Positions 3,202 through 24,650 of a DNA stretch of 40,530 bases are shown piece after piece. The translations under genes were made by a program, and so were the position numbers. Under the pieces are notes generated by a model. The model made no database searches and was not told where the DNA came from. It saw only the letters and a program-made list of their open reading frames with translations. How positions within the stretch are numbered: the stretch's first letter is position 1; every line of letters begins with the position of its first letter. The DNA comes from a virus, in the IMG/VR virus record IMGVR_UViG_3300009553_000046, positions 1 through 40,530 of that record; one strand, given 5' to 3'.

Positions 3202-3558
3202 CTACCTATCTGAAATCAGTCGAGCGATTTCATCTGGATTTTCGCAGCGCCACTGTTCCCAGCTTGGATCGATAAGTTTGTGCTGCGTCCATTCCGGAAC
3301 GTCTGGCTTTCTCGTGAATGGCTTCCGTTGGCGCGGGTAGCAGCGCTCGCAGAGCTGTCCGAACTTCGGCGAGTAGCCTAGGTGCTCTGAACAAAAGTGG
3401 AGGCCGCAGCCGCGGTTCTCACCTGGGGTATTGATCATGCCGCAAACATGGCTGAGCCCGCGATCGATCTGTTTGTTGCAATCTGGATGATCACAGAGTG
3501 CCGGCACGCCGTAGCCGATGTCCCGGTCATCTTTGCCTGTGCCTACAGCCCACCCCAT
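3202..3558 (-). CDS. Cys/His-rich putative zinc-binding phage protein
   Basis: 118 residues from ATG 3558, supported by a strong AGGAGG site 9 bases upstream; the longer in-frame version lacks such a site. It has three Cys/His groups: C22-D-H-x2-C27, C39...C51-x4-C56-x2-H59 and C70-x2-C73. Together these suggest one or two structural zinc sites. The C-terminal third (TRKPDVPEWTQHKLIDPSWEQW) is Trp-rich. Likely an early nucleic-acid or protein-interaction module. The family is not recognised beyond 'phage zinc-binding'. Confidence 0.65.
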   Translation of the reverse strand: MGWAVGTGKDDRDIGYGVPALCDHPDCNKQIDRGLSHVCGMINTPGENRGCGLHFCSEHLGYSPKFGQLCERCYPRQRKPFTRKPDVPEWTQHKLIDPSWEQWRCENPDEIARLISDR

Positions 3559-3589
3559 CAATAGCCTCCTGTTGATCGCCGACGACACG

Positions 3590-3793
3590 TCAGCGGGCCG
3601 GAAGCAGGCCGGCATCCACTGCCGCTTGCTCCAAAAGCTGAAGGCGGCGAACAGCCTCATAGATTTTCTGTTGCGCCAGCTTGTCTTCGACATGGAAGGC
3701 GGCAATCCCTACTAAGCTTAAGCAGAGTTCCTTTGAGCTCATCCTGCGCGGCGGCGTAGGAGCCTTCTTCGTCTTCGCAGCTTTCTTTTTCAT
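3590..3793 (-). CDS. Small phage protein with basic N-terminus
   Basis: 67 residues, ATG 3793 preceded by GGAGAGG. The first 18 residues are strongly basic (KKKAAKTKKAPTPPRR). A helical region follows (LCLSLVGIAAFHVEDKLAQQKIYEAVRRLQLLEQAAVDAGLL). A basic tail plus an amphipathic helix suggests DNA or RNA binding, but this is inference only. It stands 29 bases upstream of the preceding start, within the leftward operon. Confidence 0.6.
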   Translation of the reverse strand: MKKKAAKTKKAPTPPRRMSSKELCLSLVGIAAFHVEDKLAQQKIYEAVRRLQLLEQAAVDAGLLPAR

Positions 3794-3822
3794 GACGCCT
3801 CTCCGTGTCTAGCCACATGCGA

Positions 3823-4068
3823 TCAGATGCCAGTGCCATCGCGCGAAACGCGCGCCGCATGCTCGTCGAAGCCGCGCATGAGTGCGTTGGCGAACCAAGC
3901 GATCATCGTGCCTTCGTCCATGGTCGGATTCAGCTTGCAGAACGCCTTGGCCCAGTCCTGGGCGTCGAATGACGGCAGCGGCCAGTCCGGCCGATCTTCG
4001 GGCTTCGTGTCCGCATGCTCACGCTCGAACTCAGCATGGTCGCCGTTGAGGATGATCGGGTAGGCCAT
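3823..4068 (-). CDS. Conserved-looking small phage protein
   Basis: 81 residues from ATG 4068, with AAGGAG 6 bases upstream (this decided the start over a 10-residue extension). The acidic N-terminal half is followed by DAQDWAKAFCKLNPTMDEGTMIAWFANALMRGFDE, a helical block I remember from other alphaproteobacterial phages as a hypothetical protein. No known function. It lies between two other short early genes. Confidence 0.65.
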   Translation of the reverse strand: MAYPIILNGDHAEFEREHADTKPEDRPDWPLPSFDAQDWAKAFCKLNPTMDEGTMIAWFANALMRGFDEHAARVSRDGTGI

Positions 4069-4116
4069 TTCATTCTCCTTCGTTGCAATAGGCCGCAAAG
4101 CGTCAGACAGGGCGCA

Positions 4117-4299
4117 TCAGCGTGCGTCATCGTTCCAAAAGCCAAGAACATGCCCAAGGGAGCGCGGCCTACGGTCAAGCTCATCAGCCGCCTGTTCGAG
4201 CACCACGGCTGAGACTGTGACGGTGTTTGGGTTGCCTGCGGCGTTCCTTGCGCCGCCTGTGTTTTCGATGATCTTTCGGATCATTTCGCTAGTCGTCAT
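4117..4299 (-). CDS. Small phage protein of unknown function
   Basis: 60 residues starting MTTSEMIRKIIENTGG at ATG 4299, with GAGAGGTGAG just upstream. An alternative TTG at 4320 would add seven residues and has no ribosome site. The sequence is a short amphipathic N-terminal helix, a Gly/Asn turn, a second helix (SAVVLEQAADELDRR) and a hydrophobic end. It is 25 bases downstream of the primase-helicase stop and is probably translated from the same message. Confidence 0.55.
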   Translation of the reverse strand: MTTSEMIRKIIENTGGARNAAGNPNTVTVSAVVLEQAADELDRRPRSLGHVLGFWNDDAR

Positions 4300-4324
4300 A
4301 TCGCTCACCTCTCCAGACAAACGC

Positions 4325-7228
4325 CTAACGTCTCAAACTCTCGTTGTACGCAACAACACGCTCGTCGTGCGGTTTACGCGGAGGCAGTCCGGGCTCGACA
4401 ACCTCGCGCAAACCGCCCTTCACCGAAGGATGCTCTGCGTCGATCTCGTAACAGGTCGATTGACCGGATGCGTAGTCGGTGCCAGCGCCAAGTGTCAGCC
4501 GTCGGCTCTCGCGCACCAGCACGCCAAGCGCCTTTAGCTTCTCGAAGAACGGACGGATCGGGATCGCGTTCTCGACGAGCCACTTCCTGAAGAACACCTC
4601 TTGGATATAGAGCCGACCGGGCACGCGCTCGTAACGGATCTGGAGCTCATGACGCGGCGTAATCAGCGGCCGCTGGTCCTGCTTCGGCTTCCACTCGTTC
4701 TGCACGACCAATGTCGACTGGATCGACTTCGACAAGAACTGCGCGAGGATCAGCGACGGATCGGCGCGGTGGTCGATCGCCATCACAGAGCCCTTGGCGT
4801 ACTCGATCGCCCAGTCGGTGATGCGGTCGGTGGAGCACGCAAGGATGCCCAGCTTGTTGACCAGAACGCTGGCTGCCATCACACTCGCGATGGTGCGCAC
4901 CCAGAACCGATGCTCATTGGTGAGCCCCGAACGCTCCCACACCTGGTCGGTCCACTTCGGCAGCGCCTCGGTGATGAATTTGAGCACCTGCGGATTGGTC
5001 AGGAGCTGCATGTAGGCGTGACCGGCGTGACCGGAGTTGTCGCGCAGCGCGCGCTTCAGGTCGTCGCCCTTCTTCGCAATGCCCTTGGGGATCGACGTCT
5101 CGAACTCCAGCACGCGATAGGCCGGCGCATCGGTTCCCGCGTTGGTCGCCAGCACGTCGCGGATGCTCTGATTGGAGGCGAGCGTCAGGATGGTCGACCA
5201 GCTTGCCTTGGAGTGCCGGAGGTTGCCGTCCTGCGTGCCGCGCATCTTGTCGCGGCCGTTGGTGAACATCAAGACGAACTCTCTAATTTGGTCAGGATCG
5301 CGGTTGTAAAGCTCGTCCCACGTCACAGGGAGGTTTGCGAGGACACCCAGGATGAGAGACTTCGATACTCGGGTGTCATCATCAGTGAGTCTAATTCCTT
5401 CTTTCCGTCCCCAGACAGATTCGATTGCTTCAAGCGCAGTAGTTTTACCAGAGCCAGACTGGTCATTAGCAAGGCTGATGATAGATCCGCCTTCTCCGCT
5501 GCTGTGAAATCGCATAAGGGGTGCGGCGAAGCTTCCAAGCAGAGCGAAAGATTGCGGCTCGCATCCTTGAGCGAACAAAGTGTTAGCAGCAGCAGACCAC
5601 TTTCCAAGTTCGCCTCCCTTGCATGGTCCAAGCCATTGGTTCCTGATCTTCACTTCGTCGGCGCCGATGATCGGCTGCGCGGTGCCTTGCACGTACAGGT
5701 GCGGGCCGTAGAGGAACGAATTGTCCTCCTTCCAGCCGTACTGCTCGAACCGCTTATCGAGCTTGTTGTCTGCGTTGAACATATCGACCGCTTCCCGCAC
5801 GTACCGCTTGAACAGATCGCTGTCGTGGATGACAGCACCTCTCCCCGATATATCGCTCACCCCGGTCGAGGAGAAGATGGACTTCGCACCGACCACCAGT
5901 TCCTTGGCGCTCTCGTTCGGCAGCTCCAGGCCGAAGCGGTAGGAGAACGAGTCGCCGTTGATCTCGCCAGTCTGGACACCCTTCAGGTAGAGCGGGTACG
6001 TCGAGACCGTGTCGTAGAGGTCTTCCCCTTCGTTGCTCTCTTTCGTGAAGACGAGCGCGCGGCCTTGCCAGCGGAAATCGACGGGGAGACGTGGTAGTCC
6101 TGCCAGTTCTGCCAACTGTGCTGTAGGCAGTTGTGCGACAGCCACCGGAGATAGGGACTGGGCAGACCCATCACTGGCGGCATAGGGGGAACGTCCAAGC
6201 TGTATCGGGGACGTAATCTTCCCGCGGAAACTGCATCCTTGACACGCTGCCGAATTGACACCCGCGAACTTCTCGCAGGTTGTAGGTCCAAATTGACGGC
6301 TGCGCGCAAGGCGCTCGTCTGTTTCTTGTTGAGTGTAGTTGGGGTGTCCGCTGCTCCACTCGTGAGCAAAGTTTGCGCCATCGACGCAATGCGCAAGCAG
6401 TCCGATCGCAGCGTACCAATGAGGCTCTGCAATTCGCCCATTGCTGTCGCGAAGTCCTGCAACCTGCGCGCATCCGTCGGCGATGGGCTCGGCATAGCTT
6501 GGGGTCTCGACGTGGAGCTGGAGGGCACCTGCGACGAGGCTTCGACGTCGCGGCAGAGTTGTTGATAGTAGTGACGTGTGCGGCGACAAGCTGCGCACGG
6601 GCAGTTTCGATGTTCGGAGTGCAGCATTCAACTCTCCCAAGTCGCTCAGCCGGTAGGGACCGACAGGTCCGCCCCAGCGGACTATTGTTTCGTTGTCGTG
6701 CTTTCGGTTCCGTGTGCCCGGCGGTCGGAGTATCGATGCAATATCCGCAGTTCGACTCCCATCCGCTTGTAGACCGAAACTGTCACAAGATAATCGAATT
6801 CGCGCAGCGATTGATCGCCAAACTTCCGAGTCCACTGCTTGTTCCAGCGGCCAATAGCAATGAACACCACTACCCGATCCAACAAAAATCGGGACAGGCA
6901 GCCCGCCACGCTGGCAAAACGCTGCGGCGGCTTCAGCGGCTTCGGTTGCGTCTGCGTACGGCTTTCCTGGCCCAGCATCGACGTCGAGCCAGAAACTCTT
7001 AGCGGCCAGAACATTGGACTGCTTCCTGTTGTCGCTGGTCTTGTAGGACGCGCAGGCGTGGTAAATGGTCTTGCCCAGCGCGTCCTCGGTGGAGATGATG
7101 TGCGCCAGTTCCTCGAACGACGTGGTGAAGCGGTGGTACTTCCGGCCGCCAGGTTCGAAGATCGCCGCGCACTTCAAGCCCTCACTTGGGAGAATGAGCT
7201 TGAGGAAGTCGAGCGCGGATGGCTGCAT
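4325..7228 (-). CDS. Primase-helicase: archaeo-eukaryotic-type primase domain plus DUF927 helicase
   Basis: 967 residues. The N-terminal region has the primase-like motifs LDVD (residues 81-84) and SGSGVHCYW (118-126), the D-x-D and sGsGxH-x-Y patterns of archaeo-eukaryotic/RepB-type primases. A Cys group (C318, C329, C332) sits in the linker. The DUF927-type ATPase follows, with Walker A DQSGSGKTT (590-598) and Walker B VTWDEL (635-640). It would unwind DNA and lay primers for the family A polymerase encoded upstream in the same operon. ATG 7228 has GAGGG upstream and overlaps the previous gene by 47 bases. Motifs are seen directly; the DUF927 assignment is by pattern memory. Confidence 0.88.
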   Translation of the reverse strand: MQPSALDFLKLILPSEGLKCAAIFEPGGRKYHRFTTSFEELAHIISTEDALGKTIYHACASYKTSDNRKQSNVLAAKSFWLDVDAGPGKPYADATEAAEAAAAFCQRGGLPVPIFVGSGSGVHCYWPLEQAVDSEVWRSIAARIRLSCDSFGLQADGSRTADIASILRPPGTRNRKHDNETIVRWGGPVGPYRLSDLGELNAALRTSKLPVRSLSPHTSLLSTTLPRRRSLVAGALQLHVETPSYAEPIADGCAQVAGLRDSNGRIAEPHWYAAIGLLAHCVDGANFAHEWSSGHPNYTQQETDERLARSRQFGPTTCEKFAGVNSAACQGCSFRGKITSPIQLGRSPYAASDGSAQSLSPVAVAQLPTAQLAELAGLPRLPVDFRWQGRALVFTKESNEGEDLYDTVSTYPLYLKGVQTGEINGDSFSYRFGLELPNESAKELVVGAKSIFSSTGVSDISGRGAVIHDSDLFKRYVREAVDMFNADNKLDKRFEQYGWKEDNSFLYGPHLYVQGTAQPIIGADEVKIRNQWLGPCKGGELGKWSAAANTLFAQGCEPQSFALLGSFAAPLMRFHSSGEGGSIISLANDQSGSGKTTALEAIESVWGRKEGIRLTDDDTRVSKSLILGVLANLPVTWDELYNRDPDQIREFVLMFTNGRDKMRGTQDGNLRHSKASWSTILTLASNQSIRDVLATNAGTDAPAYRVLEFETSIPKGIAKKGDDLKRALRDNSGHAGHAYMQLLTNPQVLKFITEALPKWTDQVWERSGLTNEHRFWVRTIASVMAASVLVNKLGILACSTDRITDWAIEYAKGSVMAIDHRADPSLILAQFLSKSIQSTLVVQNEWKPKQDQRPLITPRHELQIRYERVPGRLYIQEVFFRKWLVENAIPIRPFFEKLKALGVLVRESRRLTLGAGTDYASGQSTCYEIDAEHPSVKGGLREVVEPGLPPRKPHDERVVAYNESLRR

Positions 7229-9548: not shown

Positions 9549-9712
9549 TTGCTCTCTCCCAAAGCGCAGATCACGAAACAGGCAAAAAGGAACAGAATAA
9601 TGCCCCCTGCAGCGTCTGCGTATTTTGATGCCCTTTCGGGGTCAGTGTTTTCTGCCCATTGCATAGTGACGATGGAAACCGACAATATGATTGCCCAGGA
9701 AAGGGTTTTCAT
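9545..9712 (-). CDS. Small two-pass membrane protein
   Basis: 55 residues, ATG 9712; a longer in-frame version is a shadow of the helicase gene. Two hydrophobic segments (residues 4-18, LSWAIILSVSIVTMQ; 36-51, GGIILFLFACFVICAL) flank a short charged loop (ENTDPERASKYAD). It overlaps the helicase end and the next start (ATGA). Such small membrane proteins in early operons often modulate the host envelope or superinfection. No direct evidence of function. Confidence 0.62.
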   Translation of the reverse strand: MKTLSWAIILSVSIVTMQWAENTDPERASKYADAAGGIILFLFACFVICALGESK

Positions 9713-11255
9713 TGTTCCTGCACCATCTTCAGCAACAGCCCTTGCAGGGTCTCGTTGCTCTCCAACCTTCTGAAAATCTCCCGCTCTATCGCGGTGGCGA
9801 CGAGCTGGACAACGACACAACTTCTCCGCTGCCCTGGTCGATGGATTCGTTTATTGGCCTGTAAATATAGTTCAGTACGGTCAGTAGGTGCGAACCACAC
9901 GATGGCAGTAGCGGCGACAAGTGTGAGCCCATGTGACATGGTTCCTGGATCAGCAACAATGATCCTGGGGTTGGCGTCCTGCTCGAACGAGCGGAAGATT
10001 TCATTGCGTTCCTTCGGGCTCGTGTCACCGTGAACCTGCGCGACCGTATAATCCTTGCTCAACTCCGAATATAACATAGTCAGAACCGAACGCAATGGGG
10101 CAAACACAATTATTTTCTCGTTGCACTGCTCGATCACTTCACGAAGGGCAGCAAGACGAGGCGAACAGTCGAGCCGATGAACAGGCCGGTCGCCGCCCCT
10201 AACAGCAGGGCCATACACAGATCCACAACTGATCTGGATAAGCTTGCCGCGTAGTACCGCCTCGTTCGCAGCCGTGATAGCCCTGCCTTAGCCTGCAGCA
10301 CCAACTCATTCTTCATCTCCTTGTAGGCCGCCTGCTGCTCGGCGCTCAGCTCCACCTCGCGCTGCTGCACCGTCATCGCTGGCAGGTCGACGCACTGGTC
10401 GATCGAGAACCGTACGGCGGGCTGCAGGAGCTCCATCGCCGCGGCGTGTGAGCCGGACTTCGGCACCCACTTGTACATGGATACCTTGGTCATCGTCCGG
10501 TCCTGGTATGAGTAGAACGACTCGCCTTTGCAGTTGTTGACGAGTTTGGCCATGCCGTAGGCGTCGAGCGGGCCGTTCGGCGTCGGCGTGCCGGTCATCA
10601 TCCACAAGTAATCTTTTTTTCCCAGCAGGGTTCGCGCCAGTTTATGGCGCTTCGTGGTGCGGTCACGGTAAGCAGAGCACTCGTCCACGATAGCCATTCT
10701 AATGTCGGGTCGCTGATCCAGCTCTTTGGCCACGACAGCGAGACCATCAAAGTTGATGACGTAAAAGTCCGCCGGTTTTGCGAGCAGCTCGCGACGTTTG
10801 GCAGCACTGCCGTGGATGACAACAACCGTGCGACGTCCGAGGAAATGAGTGAAGACGGCATCGGCCCACACCCGTTGCATTGTGCTTAGTGGACAAACAA
10901 TGAGACAGCGAACCCCAGGAAACTGACGCAGGATAAAATCACTGGCCCATAAAGCAGCAAGGGTTTTTCCTGTGCCCATATCCGAGAGGACAAAAGCTCG
11001 AGGGTGAACAGACAAGAAATTAGCTGTGATCCGCTGAGCAGCAAAAGGAGAATAGCGGCCGGGCCAGTCATAAGCGTCGTCCATCGGTGAGGGGACTTGC
11101 AACCCCAACCATCGGAGAAGCTGGAGGTTGTACAGCGTGTTCGGCGTGGCGACGAAGCCGTTGTGCAGCCGGCGCGCAGACGGGATCGCCTGCACGACCT
11201 TGTCGGCGATCGGCGTGTCGTGGATGACGACGTTACGCTGACGGTCGAGCCACAT
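9709..11255 (-). pseudogene. SNF2-type DEAD-box helicase, interrupted by an apparent 1-base frameshift
   Basis: The family is clear: Walker A DMGTGKT (residues 92-98), DECS box (191-194), TGTPTPNGPLDAYG, then in the C-terminal lobe VHGDTSPKER and QANKRIHRPGQRR. ATG 11255 is chosen (44 codons after the open frame begins) because AGGCTGGAG precedes it. The N-terminal frame runs to 10285 and ends its sense at QAKAG; the C-terminal frame starts with ITAANEAVLRGKLIQISCG. Adding one G at 10281-10283 joins them as QAKAG-AITAANEAV, giving 515 residues, the normal size. No good start exists for the second half alone. It is either a real mutation, a homopolymer error or a frameshifting site. Confidence 0.85.
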
Positions 11256-11580
11256 GCTCCAGCCTATAAAGGTGCGTGCCCATGCCGCGGCTGTGATTGC
11301 GCACGGCCCAGCCCATCGGGTTGATCGCCTTGTTGATCCGGGTGACGGACGTGATGACGCACTCCCGCGCCGTATCGGGACCGCCATCGCGGCGCTCGCT
11401 GTAAAGCACGTCGATCAGGTCGTCGATCGGTCTGGCGCAGCGCATCACCGCTTCGAGGATCTTAAAGGCGTGCGGCGAGAGCACGACGGCGTGCTCGCTG
11501 GTCATGACGATGTTGTAGCGTGGCACCAGCTTGAGGCCGGTCCGTTGCGGCAGCGGTTGCTCGCAGCACGGGCAGTTCAT
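11233..11580 (-). CDS. Winged-helix-type protein with N-terminal CxxC group
   Basis: 115 residues, ATG 11580 with GGAGG 5 bases upstream. The first residues contain C4-P-C-C7-E-x-P, a partial zinc-knuckle pattern. The body (VVLSPHAFKILEAVMRCARPIDDLIDVLYSERRDGGPDTARECVITSVTRINKAI) fits the winged-helix of OmpR-like C-terminal domains; such stand-alone wHTH proteins occur in phage genomes. It overlaps the helicase start and is coupled to the preceding gene (ATGA). Likely a transcriptional or DNA-binding protein; target unknown. Confidence 0.75.
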   Translation of the reverse strand: MNCPCCEQPLPQRTGLKLVPRYNIVMTSEHAVVLSPHAFKILEAVMRCARPIDDLIDVLYSERRDGGPDTARECVITSVTRINKAINPMGWAVRNHSRGMGTHLYRLEHVARPSA

Positions 11581-21096: not shown

Positions 21097-21571
21097 ATGC
21101 GCGCCTATTACAACGAGAACGACAAAAACTGCGCAGCATGGCTTCGCGAACTCATCGCGGATAAGCTGATCGCAACCGGAGACGTGGATGAACGCGACAT
21201 ACGAGACGTCAAGCCCGCAGAACTTCGCGGCTACACCCAATGTCATTTCTTCGCAGGCATCGGCGGCTGGTCGCTCGCTCTACGTCAAGCGGCTTGGCCA
21301 GATCATCGCCCGGTATGGACGGGAAGCTGTCCTTGCCAGCCTTTCTCCGCGGCAGGCCAACGCCGCGGGTTTGCTGACGAGCGGCACCTGTGGCCCTACT
21401 GGCACTGGCTCATACAGCAGTGCACGCCTACAAAAATTTATGGAGAGCAGGTTAGTACAGCACCCCTTTGGCTCGACGGAGTGTGCGCTGACCTGGAAGC
21501 ATGTAAGTTTGCCGTCGGGGCGGCGCATATTCCGGCTGTCAGCGTCGGTGCGAAGCACATACGATACAGGG
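21097..21571 (+). pseudogene. 5' part of a C5-cytosine DNA methyltransferase, split by the transposon
   Basis: Residues 1-158 show FFAGIGG (motif I, about 51-57), SCPCQP with catalytic Cys80 (motif IV), GEQV (E117, motif VI) and GAKHIRYR (motif VIII-like). The gene would methylate cytosine in phage or host DNA, for example to evade restriction. The open frame continues past 21571 into transposon DNA and stops at 21837 after 88 alien residues. Removing 21572-24225 plus one target copy joins it in frame to 24234-24646, giving a 295-residue enzyme. There is no clear ribosome site before 21097. Confidence 0.88.
21564..21571 (+). repeat. Left target-site duplication of the transposon
   Basis: ATACAGGG lies immediately left of the left inverted repeat and is repeated exactly at 24226-24233 on the right side. 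The 8-bp size fits the IS1595 family. Confidence 0.93.
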
Positions 21572-21598
21572 GGCGATATTCGACTTCCCGTACCCACC
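21572..21598 (+). repeat. Left terminal inverted repeat
   Basis: 27 bp, perfect match to the reverse complement of 24199-24225; starts GGCGATATTC and ends CCCACC. Beyond it the two ends diverge. Confidence 0.93.
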
Positions 21599-21685
21599 CC
21601 GATTTGTCGAGTCTGCGTTCGCTAGACGTTCACGGCGATGCAACTTCGTTCCGAAACGTTCCGCTCACCAATCGTCGCGGTTGCG

Positions 21686-21907
21686 TCAATCCTTCCGCTT
21701 GGTCCGTGCGGCGGCGCGCAGCCGATCCTTGTCTAGCTCAGACACGCCCGGCCCTGGCTTACGGATCATTTCGCCAAGGATGCGGTCTAGCGCTCCGGAA
21801 TCCTGATCCGCACCAAGCTCCCGAGCGGCTTCCTTGAACCGCTCGGATTGCTTTTTGTCCTTAAGCTTTGGCGTTCGCTTTTGCTTTTGACCTTTTATTC
21901 TGCCCAT
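21686..21907 (-). CDS. Small transposon companion protein
   Basis: 73 residues, ATG 21907 with GGAAGG upstream, 14 bases downstream of the transposase stop and co-directional with it. The sequence is basic at first (MGRIKGQKQKRTPKLKDKKQSERFKEAARELGADQ) and charged throughout. I recall small proteins with 'PKLKD..Q..RF.E.A.ELG.D' beside IS1595-type transposases in alphaproteobacteria. Function unknown; it might regulate or help transposition. Confidence 0.7.
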   Translation of the reverse strand: MGRIKGQKQKRTPKLKDKKQSERFKEAARELGADQDSGALDRILGEMIRKPGPGVSELDKDRLRAAARTKRKD

Positions 21908-21921
21908 AGGGCGGCCTTCCG

Positions 21922-22839
21922 CTAATTAGTTTGCTTGTAGGTCAGTCGCTTGCCGACAATGCCCTGCAATGCGCGGTCGGCGCGGTTCACGTCATCCACA
22001 CCCAGCGCAACGCGATTGCTGAAACGGAAATCGAACTCCGCAAGGTAACGGTGCAGGTGCTTCTCAGCGCAGTGCTGATACACGCCCTTCATGCCGCGCT
22101 TAAACACCGAATAGAAGCCCTCCACGGCGTTCGTGGACACTTCCCCACGCACGTATTCGTTGATGTCGTGGTTGACCGTCTGGTGCTTCGGATATTCGAT
22201 TTTGAGGCTCTTGTACCAGCTAGCTTGGTCCGTCATCACCTTGGCCTCGCGGTCGAGATTGGCGCGGATAATCGGGATCAGCGCACCGACCGTGTTTCCG
22301 TCAACGTGGAAGCTCCGCGCCGATCCGCCACGCTCGACCAGCGTCAGGACCGTATTGCGGAACTGCGGACCGCGCCGCTTCGTCTTGCTGTTCGCGCCCT
22401 CCTGAAAGCCAATGTACGTCTCGTCGACTTCCACGATGCCGCCATCTGAGCCGAGCACCGGCATCCCGAGAACGCGCATCGCCTCGCGCACGCGGTGCGA
22501 CATGAACCAGGCCGTCTTGAGCGTGACGCCCAGCACGCGGTGAAGCTGGTTGGAGCTAATGCCCTTCTTGCTCGATGCCATCAGGTGGATTGCCTGCAAC
22601 CAGAGACGCAGCGGGACGTGGCTGGCCTCAAACACCGTGCCGACCGTCGCGCGGAACGGCTTGCGGCAGGCGTAGCACTTGTAGACGCCGATCCGCGTGG
22701 ACTTGCCCTGAAGCTTGCCGATCCGGTCGGTGCCTTGGCAGTGCGGGCAGACTGGCCCGTTCGGCCAAATGCGAGCTTCGAGATATTCGTAAGCCGCTGC
22801 TTCATCGTGGAAATGGGCGGCATCAAGAACGGAAGACAT
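21922..22839 (-). CDS. IS1595-family transposase
   Basis: 305 residues from ATG 22839 (AAGGGATTT upstream). The TTG at 22863 is a poorer alternative. Zinc ribbon: C31, C34, C55, C58 (CPHC, CYAC). The DDE-type core is VEVDETYIG (D139), VMTDQASWY (D204) and STNAVEGFYSVFKRGMKG (N237/E240, K248), the ISXO2/IS1595 pattern. It binds the terminal repeats and moves the element by cutting and joining DNA. All signatures and the full length are present, so it looks active. It is transcribed away from the DUF5343 gene. Confidence 0.93.
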   Translation of the reverse strand: MSSVLDAAHFHDEAAAYEYLEARIWPNGPVCPHCQGTDRIGKLQGKSTRIGVYKCYACRKPFRATVGTVFEASHVPLRLWLQAIHLMASSKKGISSNQLHRVLGVTLKTAWFMSHRVREAMRVLGMPVLGSDGGIVEVDETYIGFQEGANSKTKRRGPQFRNTVLTLVERGGSARSFHVDGNTVGALIPIIRANLDREAKVMTDQASWYKSLKIEYPKHQTVNHDINEYVRGEVSTNAVEGFYSVFKRGMKGVYQHCAEKHLHRYLAEFDFRFSNRVALGVDDVNRADRALQGIVGKRLTYKQTN

Positions 22840-22887
22840 GGCTAAATCCCTTATGTGATTCAACTATGTCAGGCGTATATGGGTACG

Positions 22888-23097
22888 TCAAGTAACGGCC
22901 CCATTATTTGTATCACGAATTATTTCAAACCAACGGGCAATCGTTGCTTCAAAATAGTCACGCGCTTCCCGCTCAGTCGCGCCGATTACGCCGATGCAAA
23001 GGCTTGCCCCCTGGGGGGACGCGGCCAGCCAGTCCCCGTGGGGCCGACGAATCAGATTCGGGCAGATGACCGGATGAGCGCCAGATTCTTTGGCCAT
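22888..23097 (-). CDS. Small transposon passenger protein
   Basis: 69 residues from ATG 23097, with AGGGAG 7 bases upstream; the 18-residue extension upstream is unsupported. The sequence MAKESGAHPVICPNLIRRPHGDWLAASPQGASLCIGVIGATEREARDYFEATIARWFEII is a compact alpha/beta pattern, with a helix at the end. It stands just before the transposase and shares its direction, so it is probably transcribed with it. No known family. Confidence 0.6.
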   Translation of the reverse strand: MAKESGAHPVICPNLIRRPHGDWLAASPQGASLCIGVIGATEREARDYFEATIARWFEIIRDTNNGAVT

Positions 23098-23251
23098 GAC
23101 ATGCTCCCTTATTGAGACGGCCATCCCAGCACACAGAAAATATACTGTCAAATCAATATGTTAATGAGAGTTGGTATTCGCCGTACCAAAAGGCATTGCA
23201 AACCAGCAACCCTTGTGCTTTACCACAGTCGCCTAGAACCAGGAGGCTGCC

Positions 23252-23983
23252 GTGGCTGTTACCAGGGACCGCTCAGCGCCCTACACCGCTCCGAGCGCAA
23301 TCGTCGAGTTGATCAACCGCTACCGCAATCGCGGGTTGCCTGCTCCCATTGACCGGGAAGTGTTGGCGAGGGCCAGCGTGGCCGACGGCTTGATCTCGCG
23401 CACTCTGCAATCCCTTGAGGTGCTCGATCTGATTGACGAAAAAGGGATGCCAACCGAGGCGCTAGAGGGACTGCGACTCGCCCCCGAGGCTGAATTCCAG
23501 AGCCGAATGGTGGACTGGCTCAGAGGTGCTTACGCCGAAGTCTTCTCTTTCGTTGATCCGTCTCAGGATGGCGAAACCCGCGTCCGCGATGCTTTCCGCA
23601 GCTACCATCCGGTTGGACAACAGAGCCGGATGGTCGCTCTGTTTCTCGGCCTCTGTGCCGCCGCTGGTCTTGTTCCTGAGAAGCCCGAGTCCGCGCCCAG
23701 GCCTTCGGCGCGCACCGCCTCGCCTGCGTCGGCTTCGCCGGTCGGCACTCCGCGCCAGCGCACCATCGCCAAGCGCATCGTTTCCGAGCGCGTGCTCAAG
23801 GGCGCACCGCCGCCTAACCCGGCCGTGCCACCCGCGCTAGCGGGTCTGCTCGCCAGCCTGCCCGCCGAAGGCGACACCTGGACCAAGGCCGAGCGCGCCA
23901 AGTTCATCGCCGCCTTCACCGCCATGCTCGACTTCTGCTTCCCGGTCGAGGAGGCCGCACCCAAGACGGGAACGGCGGCCTAG
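23252..23983 (+). CDS. DUF5343 family protein carried by the transposon
   Basis: 243 residues from a GTG at 23252, with AGGAGG 7 bases upstream. Residues 8-110 (SAPYTAPSAIVELINRYRNRGLPAPIDREVLARASVADGLISRTLQSLEVLDLIDEKGMPTEALEGLR...WLRGAYAEVF) match the DUF5343 pattern: a helical start, 'L..L..L.LID..G.PT', and 'lr.aYae.F'. A Pro/Ala/Ser-rich linker and a second helical segment follow. It is transcribed opposite to the transposase. The family's role is unknown. Codon use is GC-rich, like the host and phage. Confidence 0.78.
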   Translation: MAVTRDRSAPYTAPSAIVELINRYRNRGLPAPIDREVLARASVADGLISRTLQSLEVLDLIDEKGMPTEALEGLRLAPEAEFQSRMVDWLRGAYAEVFSFVDPSQDGETRVRDAFRSYHPVGQQSRMVALFLGLCAAAGLVPEKPESAPRPSARTASPASASPVGTPRQRTIAKRIVSERVLKGAPPPNPAVPPALAGLLASLPAEGDTWTKAERAKFIAAFTAMLDFCFPVEEAAPKTGTAA

Positions 23984-24160
23984 GTGGCCGCCGCCCAGAA
24001 CTGACCCCGGCTGTATCGGGGAACCAGAGCCTCCCGGCGCGATCAAGGTTATGGCCGCGACACGCAGGTGAGGTGCAGAAGCTCCCTCAGTAGTTTCGAG
24101 GGGTGAGCCGCCTCGCAGGACCGCCATCAACGGCCTGCGAGGCGGTGCCGTTTTAACTGA
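23975..24160 (+). other. Structured stretch after DUF5343 gene, candidate non-coding RNA
   Basis: From the stop of DUF5343 to the terminator there is no convincing gene. Hairpins lie in series: GGCGGCC-TAGGT-GGCCGCC (about 23975-23993), CCCCG-GCTGTAT-CGGGG (24005-24021), CCCTC-AGTAGTTTC-GAGGG (about 24085-24103), and the terminator stem (24108-24145). The order and the final terminator would fit a short structured RNA made with, or from, the DUF5343 transcript. Only the pairing is seen. Confidence 0.45.
24108..24156 (+). terminator. Rho-independent terminator of the DUF5343 transcript
   Basis: A 12-bp perfect stem, CCGCCTCGCAGG (24108-24119) and CCTGCGAGGCGG (24134-24145), has a 14-base loop and is followed by TGCCGTTTTAA on the plus strand. 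It ends rightward RNA from the DUF5343 gene before the right end of the transposon. Confidence 0.8.
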
Positions 24161-24167
24161 TTTGGTC

Positions 24168-24190
24168 GGTCTTGAACAGCATTCAAGACC
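24168..24190. repeat. Inverted repeat next to the right end of the transposon
   Basis: GGTCTTGAA, loop CAGCA, TTCAAGACC: a perfect 9-bp pair, 8 bp inside the right terminal repeat. It may be a transposase-binding or transcription-insulating site. Confidence 0.6.
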
Positions 24191-24198
24191 TGGAATTC

Positions 24199-24225
24199 GG
24201 TGGGTACGGGAAGTCGAATATCGCC
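24199..24225 (-). repeat. Right terminal inverted repeat
   Basis: 27 bp, the exact reverse complement of the left end (21572-21598). It is followed directly by the target duplication at 24226-24233. Confidence 0.93.
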
Positions 24226-24233
24226 ATACAGGG
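24226..24233 (+). repeat. Right target-site duplication of the transposon
   Basis: ATACAGGG, identical to 21564-21571, immediately right of the right inverted repeat. Confidence 0.93.
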
Positions 24234-24646
24234 CCTGGTTTACTGCCGACTCCGAGTGCGAGCAGTTATGGGACGAATCAAGGTGGAGCGGCGGGGCGCA
24301 CTGGAAAAGTTCGGCCCTCGCTGCAATCAATGGCGAAGCATGGACTGTGGCCAACGCCGCGATCTTCGCCGAACGAGAACCGGCAGAAAAAGATAAGCCC
24401 GTCGCAGGCGACGGGCTCGCACGGTCTATCACTTGCAGCAATGGCCAACCTATGGCCTACACCAACAGCAAACCGACGAAGTGGGTTACAATCCCACGGT
24501 GTGAACGCAATACTTGGCGTCCTGAACCCGCAGTGGGTCGCGTGGTTGATGGGCTATCCCACAGCATGGTGGAAGCCGCGCTACACGGTTTCGGAAACGC
24601 AATCGTTCCCCAAGTCGCTGCTGCCTTTATTCGAGCAACCTCCTGA
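24233..24646 (+). pseudogene. 3' part of the split C5-cytosine DNA methyltransferase
   Basis: The frame that continues the methyltransferase after in-silico removal of the transposon (first codon GCC at 24233-24235) ends with TGA at 24644-24646. It contains the target-recognition stretch and, near the end, GFGNAIVPQVAAAFI, which is the final conserved motif X of these enzymes. The 137 residues alone cannot be functional. A GTG at 24200 inside the terminal repeat is in frame, but there is no reason to think it is used. Confidence 0.85.
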
Positions 24647-24650
24647 TTGA
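24234..24650 (+). pseudogene. Second overlapping frame, 3' part (WPTP-type protein), also split by the transposon
   Basis: In another frame the same DNA reads GLLPTPSASSYGTNQGGAAG, LWPTP, LNPQWVAWLMGYPTAWW, a pattern often seen in phage proteins linked to methyltransferases. Its 5' part is in the same frame at 21188-21571 (…GLLTSGTCGPTGTGS…SASVRSTYDTG). Removing the transposon joins the two into a 266-residue frame. It may be an overlapping gene or merely an open shadow of the methyltransferase. Confidence 0.45.

Follow-up and report, generated by a model that had tools for sequence, protein, structure and literature searches.

The viral record IMGVR_UViG_3300009553_000046 of IMG/VR, analysed here over its full 40,530 nucleotides (the window), very probably carries an autonomous, cargo-carrying transposon of the IS1595 family, in an extended layout, inserted into a phage cytosine methyltransferase gene. 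The element ends in perfect terminal inverted repeats (27 of 27 bp), and an exact 8-bp duplication, ATACAGGG, flanks its outer ends. The interrupted gene appears, from the conservation of its reading frames, to encode two overlapping proteins. We hold it likely that two things are jointly true: that the transposon reflects an evolved form of cargo loading, in which one end was split, the cut site moving away and a half being retained as promoter or binding site, and that the target gene, of the phrog_363 family, holds a second conserved gene in the +1 frame over about its last two thirds, in phages ranging from those of Alphaproteobacteria to those of Escherichia, Salmonella, Klebsiella and Vibrio, with both genes inactivated by one transposition.

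The element and its insertion site

The same borders had been proposed in a sequence-only reading of the window, and on re-examination of the sequence they are correct to the base. A perfect 27-bp inverted pair is expected by chance anywhere in 5 kb with a probability of ~7e-10, to which the matching 8 bp add a further factor of ~1.5e-5, and a chance origin of the repeats and duplication is negligible. The element spans 2654 bp and is present in a single copy within the record. The features of the element and of the gene around it are as follows (ORF, open reading frame).

21097-21571, + strand: cytosine methyltransferase gene, 5′ part, frame 0 (Pfam, phrog_363)
21564-21571: target-site duplication, left copy, ATACAGGG
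21572-21598, + strand: terminal inverted repeat, end downstream of the transposase (27/27 match)
21686-21907, − strand: basic ORF of 73 aa immediately downstream of the transposase (by homology, an accessory ORF conserved in the IS1595 group)
21922-22840, − strand: IS1595-family transposase (Pfam, NCBIfam, motifs; ATG start at 22840)
22863-22891, − strand: predicted transposase promoter, TTGACG-17-CATAGT, with TG ahead of the −10 (promoter scan)
22880-22893, − strand: inner half-repeat ACTTGACGTACCCA (14/14 match; outer 11 nt degenerate), putatively a remnant of the ancestral left end that is now internal
22888-23097, − strand: small passenger ORF, ~70 aa from ATG 23097 (87 aa from TTG 23151), overlapping the relic
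23252-23983, + strand: passenger gene for a DUF5343 protein of 243 aa (PF17278, E 8e-24; homologues in loci L247-L251)
24199-24225, − strand: cargo-side terminal inverted repeat, in transposase orientation the putatively acquired outer left end (27/27)
24226-24233: target-site duplication, right copy, ATACAGGG
24234-24646, + strand: cytosine methyltransferase gene, 3′ part, frame 0 (continuous with the 5′ part after joining with one duplication copy)

The transposase matches Pfam and NCBIfam profiles of the IS1595 family (reportedly described by Siguier, Gagnevin and Chandler in 2009), in agreement with the type proposed from sequence alone: Zn_ribbon_IS1595 (PF12760, 1.7e-12), DDE_Tnp_IS1595 (PF12762, 6.6e-32) and transpos_IS1595 (NF033547, 6.5e-55). 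Its zinc ribbon and DDE residues, already described as kept, are there as Pfam domains with intact catalytic motifs (CPHC...CYAC, DETYIG, TDQASWY and NAVEGFYSVFKRG). The element therefore shares with the family an ISXO2-like DDE domain with an N-terminal zinc ribbon, the 8-bp duplication and related terminal inverted repeats; an 8-bp target-site duplication is likewise given for ISApl4 of the IS1595 family in PMC12561309. Translation of the transposase likely starts at ATG 22840, because the longest ORF begins at a TTG (22863) that falls inside the predicted promoter; the scan of this region returned 3 promoter-like sites versus 0.6 expected.

Three further ORFs accompany the transposase. The 73-aa ORF has counterparts of 62-69% identity in L004-L006 and weak matches in ~28 more relatives, mostly at the same position, while the DUF5343 gene and the small passenger ORF are divergently arranged. 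With these two genes inside its ends the element falls outside the definition of an ordinary insertion sequence (transposition genes only), bearing out the earlier suggestion of passenger genes, and its intact transposase places it outside that of a mobile insertion cassette, which has none of its own. No Pfam family matched the small passenger ORF, and a HicB-like antitoxin identity was dropped without Pfam support; folding the DUF5343 protein from its sequence alone gave a poor model (predicted local distance difference test, pLDDT, 43).

The target is a phage methyltransferase gene, as had been claimed. Pfam DNA_methylase matches the 5′ part, making the interrupted gene a C5 methyltransferase, and the 295-aa product of the flanks, joined with one copy of ATACAGGG, aligns from end to end with phrog_363 (DNA methyltransferase; E 5e-67). 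The site of insertion, close to VGAKHIRYRAWF of the window protein, is crossed by 70 non-redundant homologues with no gap in the surrounding columns. From the exact ends, the duplication and the restored, gap-free methyltransferase, we therefore conclude that the insertion is clean. It is probably recent; the perfect ends and duplication and the intact transposase agree with the very recent insertion suggested before. Insertion would have occurred by transposase-mediated cutting and staggered joining that copied 8 bp of target, the transposase pairing both 27-bp ends and mobilising everything between them, and methyltransferase function would have been lost.

Extended layout and cargo

Transposase relatives came from 79 loci in genomes and 42 in viral contigs, with a few more from a genome search. 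This comparison places the element in a large IS1595 group of Alphaproteobacteria, and its ends have 20-26 of 27 nt in common with those of many relatives. In most group members the transposase lies ~60 bp from a left repeat containing a TTGAC promoter box. Seventy-two relatives with exact 8-bp duplications have this ordinary layout, in which the near left repeat (typically GGCGATATTATACTTGACGTACCCA) is terminal; from the element end to the start of the transposase match there are 60 bp at the median, and the elements measure 1294-5055 bp (median 2230). Because TTGA is present in 57/72 left ends versus 7/72 right ends, the left end appears to double as the −35 region.

The window element departs from most relatives: here the left repeat lies inside the element and is reduced to half, the two outer ends are of right-hand type, and the transposase has cargo to either side. 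We defined as extended those elements that combine duplicated outer ends far from the transposase with an internal inner-half repeat, ACTTGACGTACCCA. The window element fits this definition, as do L004 (Rhodoplanes), L005 and L006 (Xanthobacteraceae), L253, and L058 (Hoeflea). Duplications occur at their farther ends only (ATACAGGG in the window, AATACAGC in L004, ATTATAAT in L005, ATTATAAT in L006, GAAGCGCC in L253 and AATATTTT in L058), the internal ACTTGACGTACCCA matches 14/14 in 6/6 with 0-3 matches kept in the outer 11 nt, and TTGA is absent from all 12 outer ends, the TTGCC-type right end of L005 included. L116 and L112, flagged as extended by script, were set aside, as they have no half-repeat beside the transposase (7/14 and 9/14).

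The closest relative, L004 (3907-6520, in a Rhodoplanes piscinae metagenome-assembled genome, MAG), shares the extended layout, the 73-aa ORF, a transposase 75% identical to that of the window and a near-identical right end (26/27 nt of the repeat at 21572-21598). It differs in length (2614 bp), in its target-site duplication (AATACAGC) and in having no DUF5343 gene; its cargo we take to be a small coiled-coil/winged-helix-like ORF on the left and a PilZ-like ORF on the right. In a quick transposase tree the window, L004, L005 and L006 cluster (Shimodaira-Hasegawa-like approximate likelihood ratio test, SH-aLRT, 90), L253 is nested with L252/L254, and L058 falls with rhizobial elements. Because L253 and L058 fall elsewhere, the extended layout probably arose repeatedly. 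Two Xanthobacteraceae MAGs carry the same extended element at one shared chromosomal position (L005, 4054-6159; L006, 4051-6370), and since both have the same chromosomal neighbours it represents one old insertion; the left-side cargo ORFs differ, so that cargo was exchanged or strongly diverged after insertion.

We propose that in the ancestor ~60 bp separated the left repeat from the transposase downstream of it. A right-type end farther out would have become the site of cutting, bringing the DUF5343 gene and the small ORF inside the element, and the old left end would then have shed its outer, cleavage-side half. The inner half would have been kept because the transposase promoter takes its −35 region from it, and it may also be a transposase-binding or autoregulation site.

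The divergent pair of DUF5343 gene and small ORF recurs in L248 (3077-8089), a 5013-bp IS1595-type element with the target-site duplication GAATTTCC and a transposase 30% identical to that of the window; its further cargo, from translations, is presumably Fic/Doc-like and RhuM-like proteins. The L248 element sits in a comM/yifB-like gene. In L250 (3727-5204) the pair forms a 1478-bp transposase-less cassette with ends CGGCATTAGGTAGC and duplication TGGATACG, and in L249 (about 3478-4954), a related genome, it forms a cassette without an exact duplication; we take the flanks of both, from their translations, to be rimM and trmD. Relatives of the small ORF adjoin DUF5343 in all three loci. Because the pair recurs in the L248 element and the L250/L249 cassette, the module, judged by gene content and end type, travels with IS1595-type ends. 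Mobile insertion cassettes consist of transposase-less cargo between inverted repeats (PMC3913671), and L250 is such a cassette, whereas the window element has its own transposase and different ends. DUF5343 homologues are infrequent (4/397 genomes of the order searched), none was confirmed in viral contigs, and the literature searched yielded no account mentioning DUF5343. PADLOC returned for the cargo a weak candidate-defence match alone (PDC-M34A, 3e-4); our best guess, a tentative one, is that the cargo may be a regulatory or defence-type pair.

The existence of the DUF5343/small-ORF pair as an independent cassette bounded by ends of its own (L250, target-site duplication TGGATACG), and of an internal repeat in the usual position of ordinary left ends, would also fit two neighbouring insertions, an ordinary IS1595 element ending at the internal half-repeat and a separate DUF5343 cassette. 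We consider this unlikely: the sole duplication flanks the outer ends, with none at either side of the internal repeat in the six extended elements, the outer ends match each other at 27/27 and are unlike those of the L250 cassette, the internal repeat has lost its outer 11 nt, and the same outer-end layout occurs in L004, L005, L006, L253 and L058, with different cargo where inspected. That the element is resident, domesticated cargo of the phage lineage and not a recent arrival would agree with its G+C content (0.604 versus 0.599 in the remainder of the contig), but the related phages L125-L127 are without the element, its ends and duplication are perfect, its transposase is uninterrupted and the gene is broken, which makes this reading very improbable. 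A host transposon misjoined to phage reads during assembly deserves hardly any credence: the source is a viral contig and the relatives of the element are mostly bacterial, but the exact duplication, the perfect ends at both junctions and the full restoration of the methyltransferase frame are as expected of transposition and not of a chimera.

Several points nonetheless weigh against a recently inserted, autonomous transposon with relocated ends. A search for other copies with the same ends, as had been suggested, found no second copy of the exact element among the viral contigs searched, and the exact end sequence had no match in them beyond the record itself. Empty sites, also suggested as a check, are represented by the 70 uninterrupted homologues, but the same phage species yielded none; the methyltransferase gene has no match in L125-L127, the nearest phages being L125 and L126 (terminase 79%). 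Transposition activity is suggested by the intact parts, and a right-end origin of the outer ends by their sequence type alone. The extended elements number six in total, and the tree is a quick version.

The +1 frame of the methyltransferase gene

The second overlapping frame lies in two parts on either side of the element:

21188-21571, + strand: second overlapping ORF, +1 frame, 5′ part (phrog_1008)
24234-24650, + strand: second overlapping ORF, +1 frame, 3′ part (phrog_1008)

In the restored gene its product matches phrog_1008 (E 2e-28), a family distinct from phrog_363 and now also labelled 'DNA methyltransferase'. The product has WPTP repeats and the motif NPxxSRWLMGxPPEW near its end, and its predicted fold is mostly of low confidence save one hairpin (pLDDT 60). 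The loci bearing the overlap are the window (21097-21571 plus 24234-24650), L136-L215 and L258-L263.

In 78/78 viral homologues most of the length of the gene is open in the +1 frame. After codon 35 that frame contains a mean of 1.3 stops versus 4.4 in synonymous-codon shuffles, while the +2 frame has no deficit (11.7 versus 11.5). Pairwise identity of the +1 product is 0.44 versus 0.273 (standard deviation 0.001) in shuffles, the excess lying mostly within codons ~80-280 and the first 80 codons, near the null, serving as an internal control. Identity in the +2 frame is likewise raised (0.41 versus 0.28), as is expected when synonymous sites are constrained. A start signal in the +1 frame has modest support: an ATG with a Shine-Dalgarno-like sequence is found in 17/70, versus 7.2 in shuffles (maximum 14).

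Cultured phages have the same +1 relation in 6/6 records opened, with differing annotation: both frames in PhiXhv-5, the +1 frame alone in FoX4, and the other frame alone in Bas71, Marilyn, pangalan and SJM3. At a G+C content of 0.49-0.52 three of them, Bas71, Marilyn and pangalan, have a significant stop deficit (P ≤ 0.005), and SJM3 has a weaker one (P 0.075). We found no published account of overlapping methyltransferase frames in a search that was not exhaustive, most subscription journals lying outside it. The methylase of actinophage ShiLan, with its out-of-frame HNH insertion (PMC11855218), resembles the window in combining a phage methylase insertion with overlapping frames; there, a homing insertion leaves the methylase frame open, whereas the window has a transposon, and there the overlapping frames are native to the methyltransferase gene itself.

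Phage context and implications

The contig encodes a DNA polymerase, primase/helicase, terminase, portal, major head protein, endolysin and a helix-turn-helix (HTH) repressor-like protein. A prophage, to which the sequence-only reading took the intact element to point, is not shown: the repressor-like HTH protein is present, and no integrase was found among 19 large window proteins scanned with PHROGs. Host assignment through GenBank phages failed, with terminase matches at most ~30% identical; the phage may have acquired the element from an alphaproteobacterial host, during infection or lysogeny. Elsewhere in the window, the phrog_62 DNA helicase family is split over two overlapping ORFs on the − strand (9709-10218 and 10134-11387, profile positions 692-959 and 984-1138), for which a natural split, a programmed frameshift and a sequencing error are candidates.

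Transposase relatives are encoded by 42 other IMG/VR stretches, and no match was found in 50,697 GenBank phage records. Among the 12 viral elements with exact 8-bp duplications that we re-examined, at least four adjoin phage structural genes (portal/terminase in L083, tail in L085, terminase in L102 and head-tail adaptor in L108). IS1595 insertion in phage contigs is uncommon yet recurrent; the claim that intact insertion sequences are rare in phages holds as to frequency and is tempered by these further viral contigs with duplications.

The element belongs to a known family with a variant architecture, and the finding is real and correctly bounded. Absent from the sequence-only reading were the extended architecture, in which an internal half-repeat forms part of the predicted promoter, the recurrence of the cargo and the overlapping second frame of the target gene. 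The window documents, to the exact base, the entry of a bacterial transposon with cargo into a phage genome, and points to one route from insertion sequence to transposon, in which the cut site would have moved outward and the old end been kept as a promoter. It also draws attention to an apparently dual-coding methyltransferase locus that is common in phages and inconsistently annotated, as one frame, the other or both; this overlap within the target gene may be a more surprising fact than the transposon.

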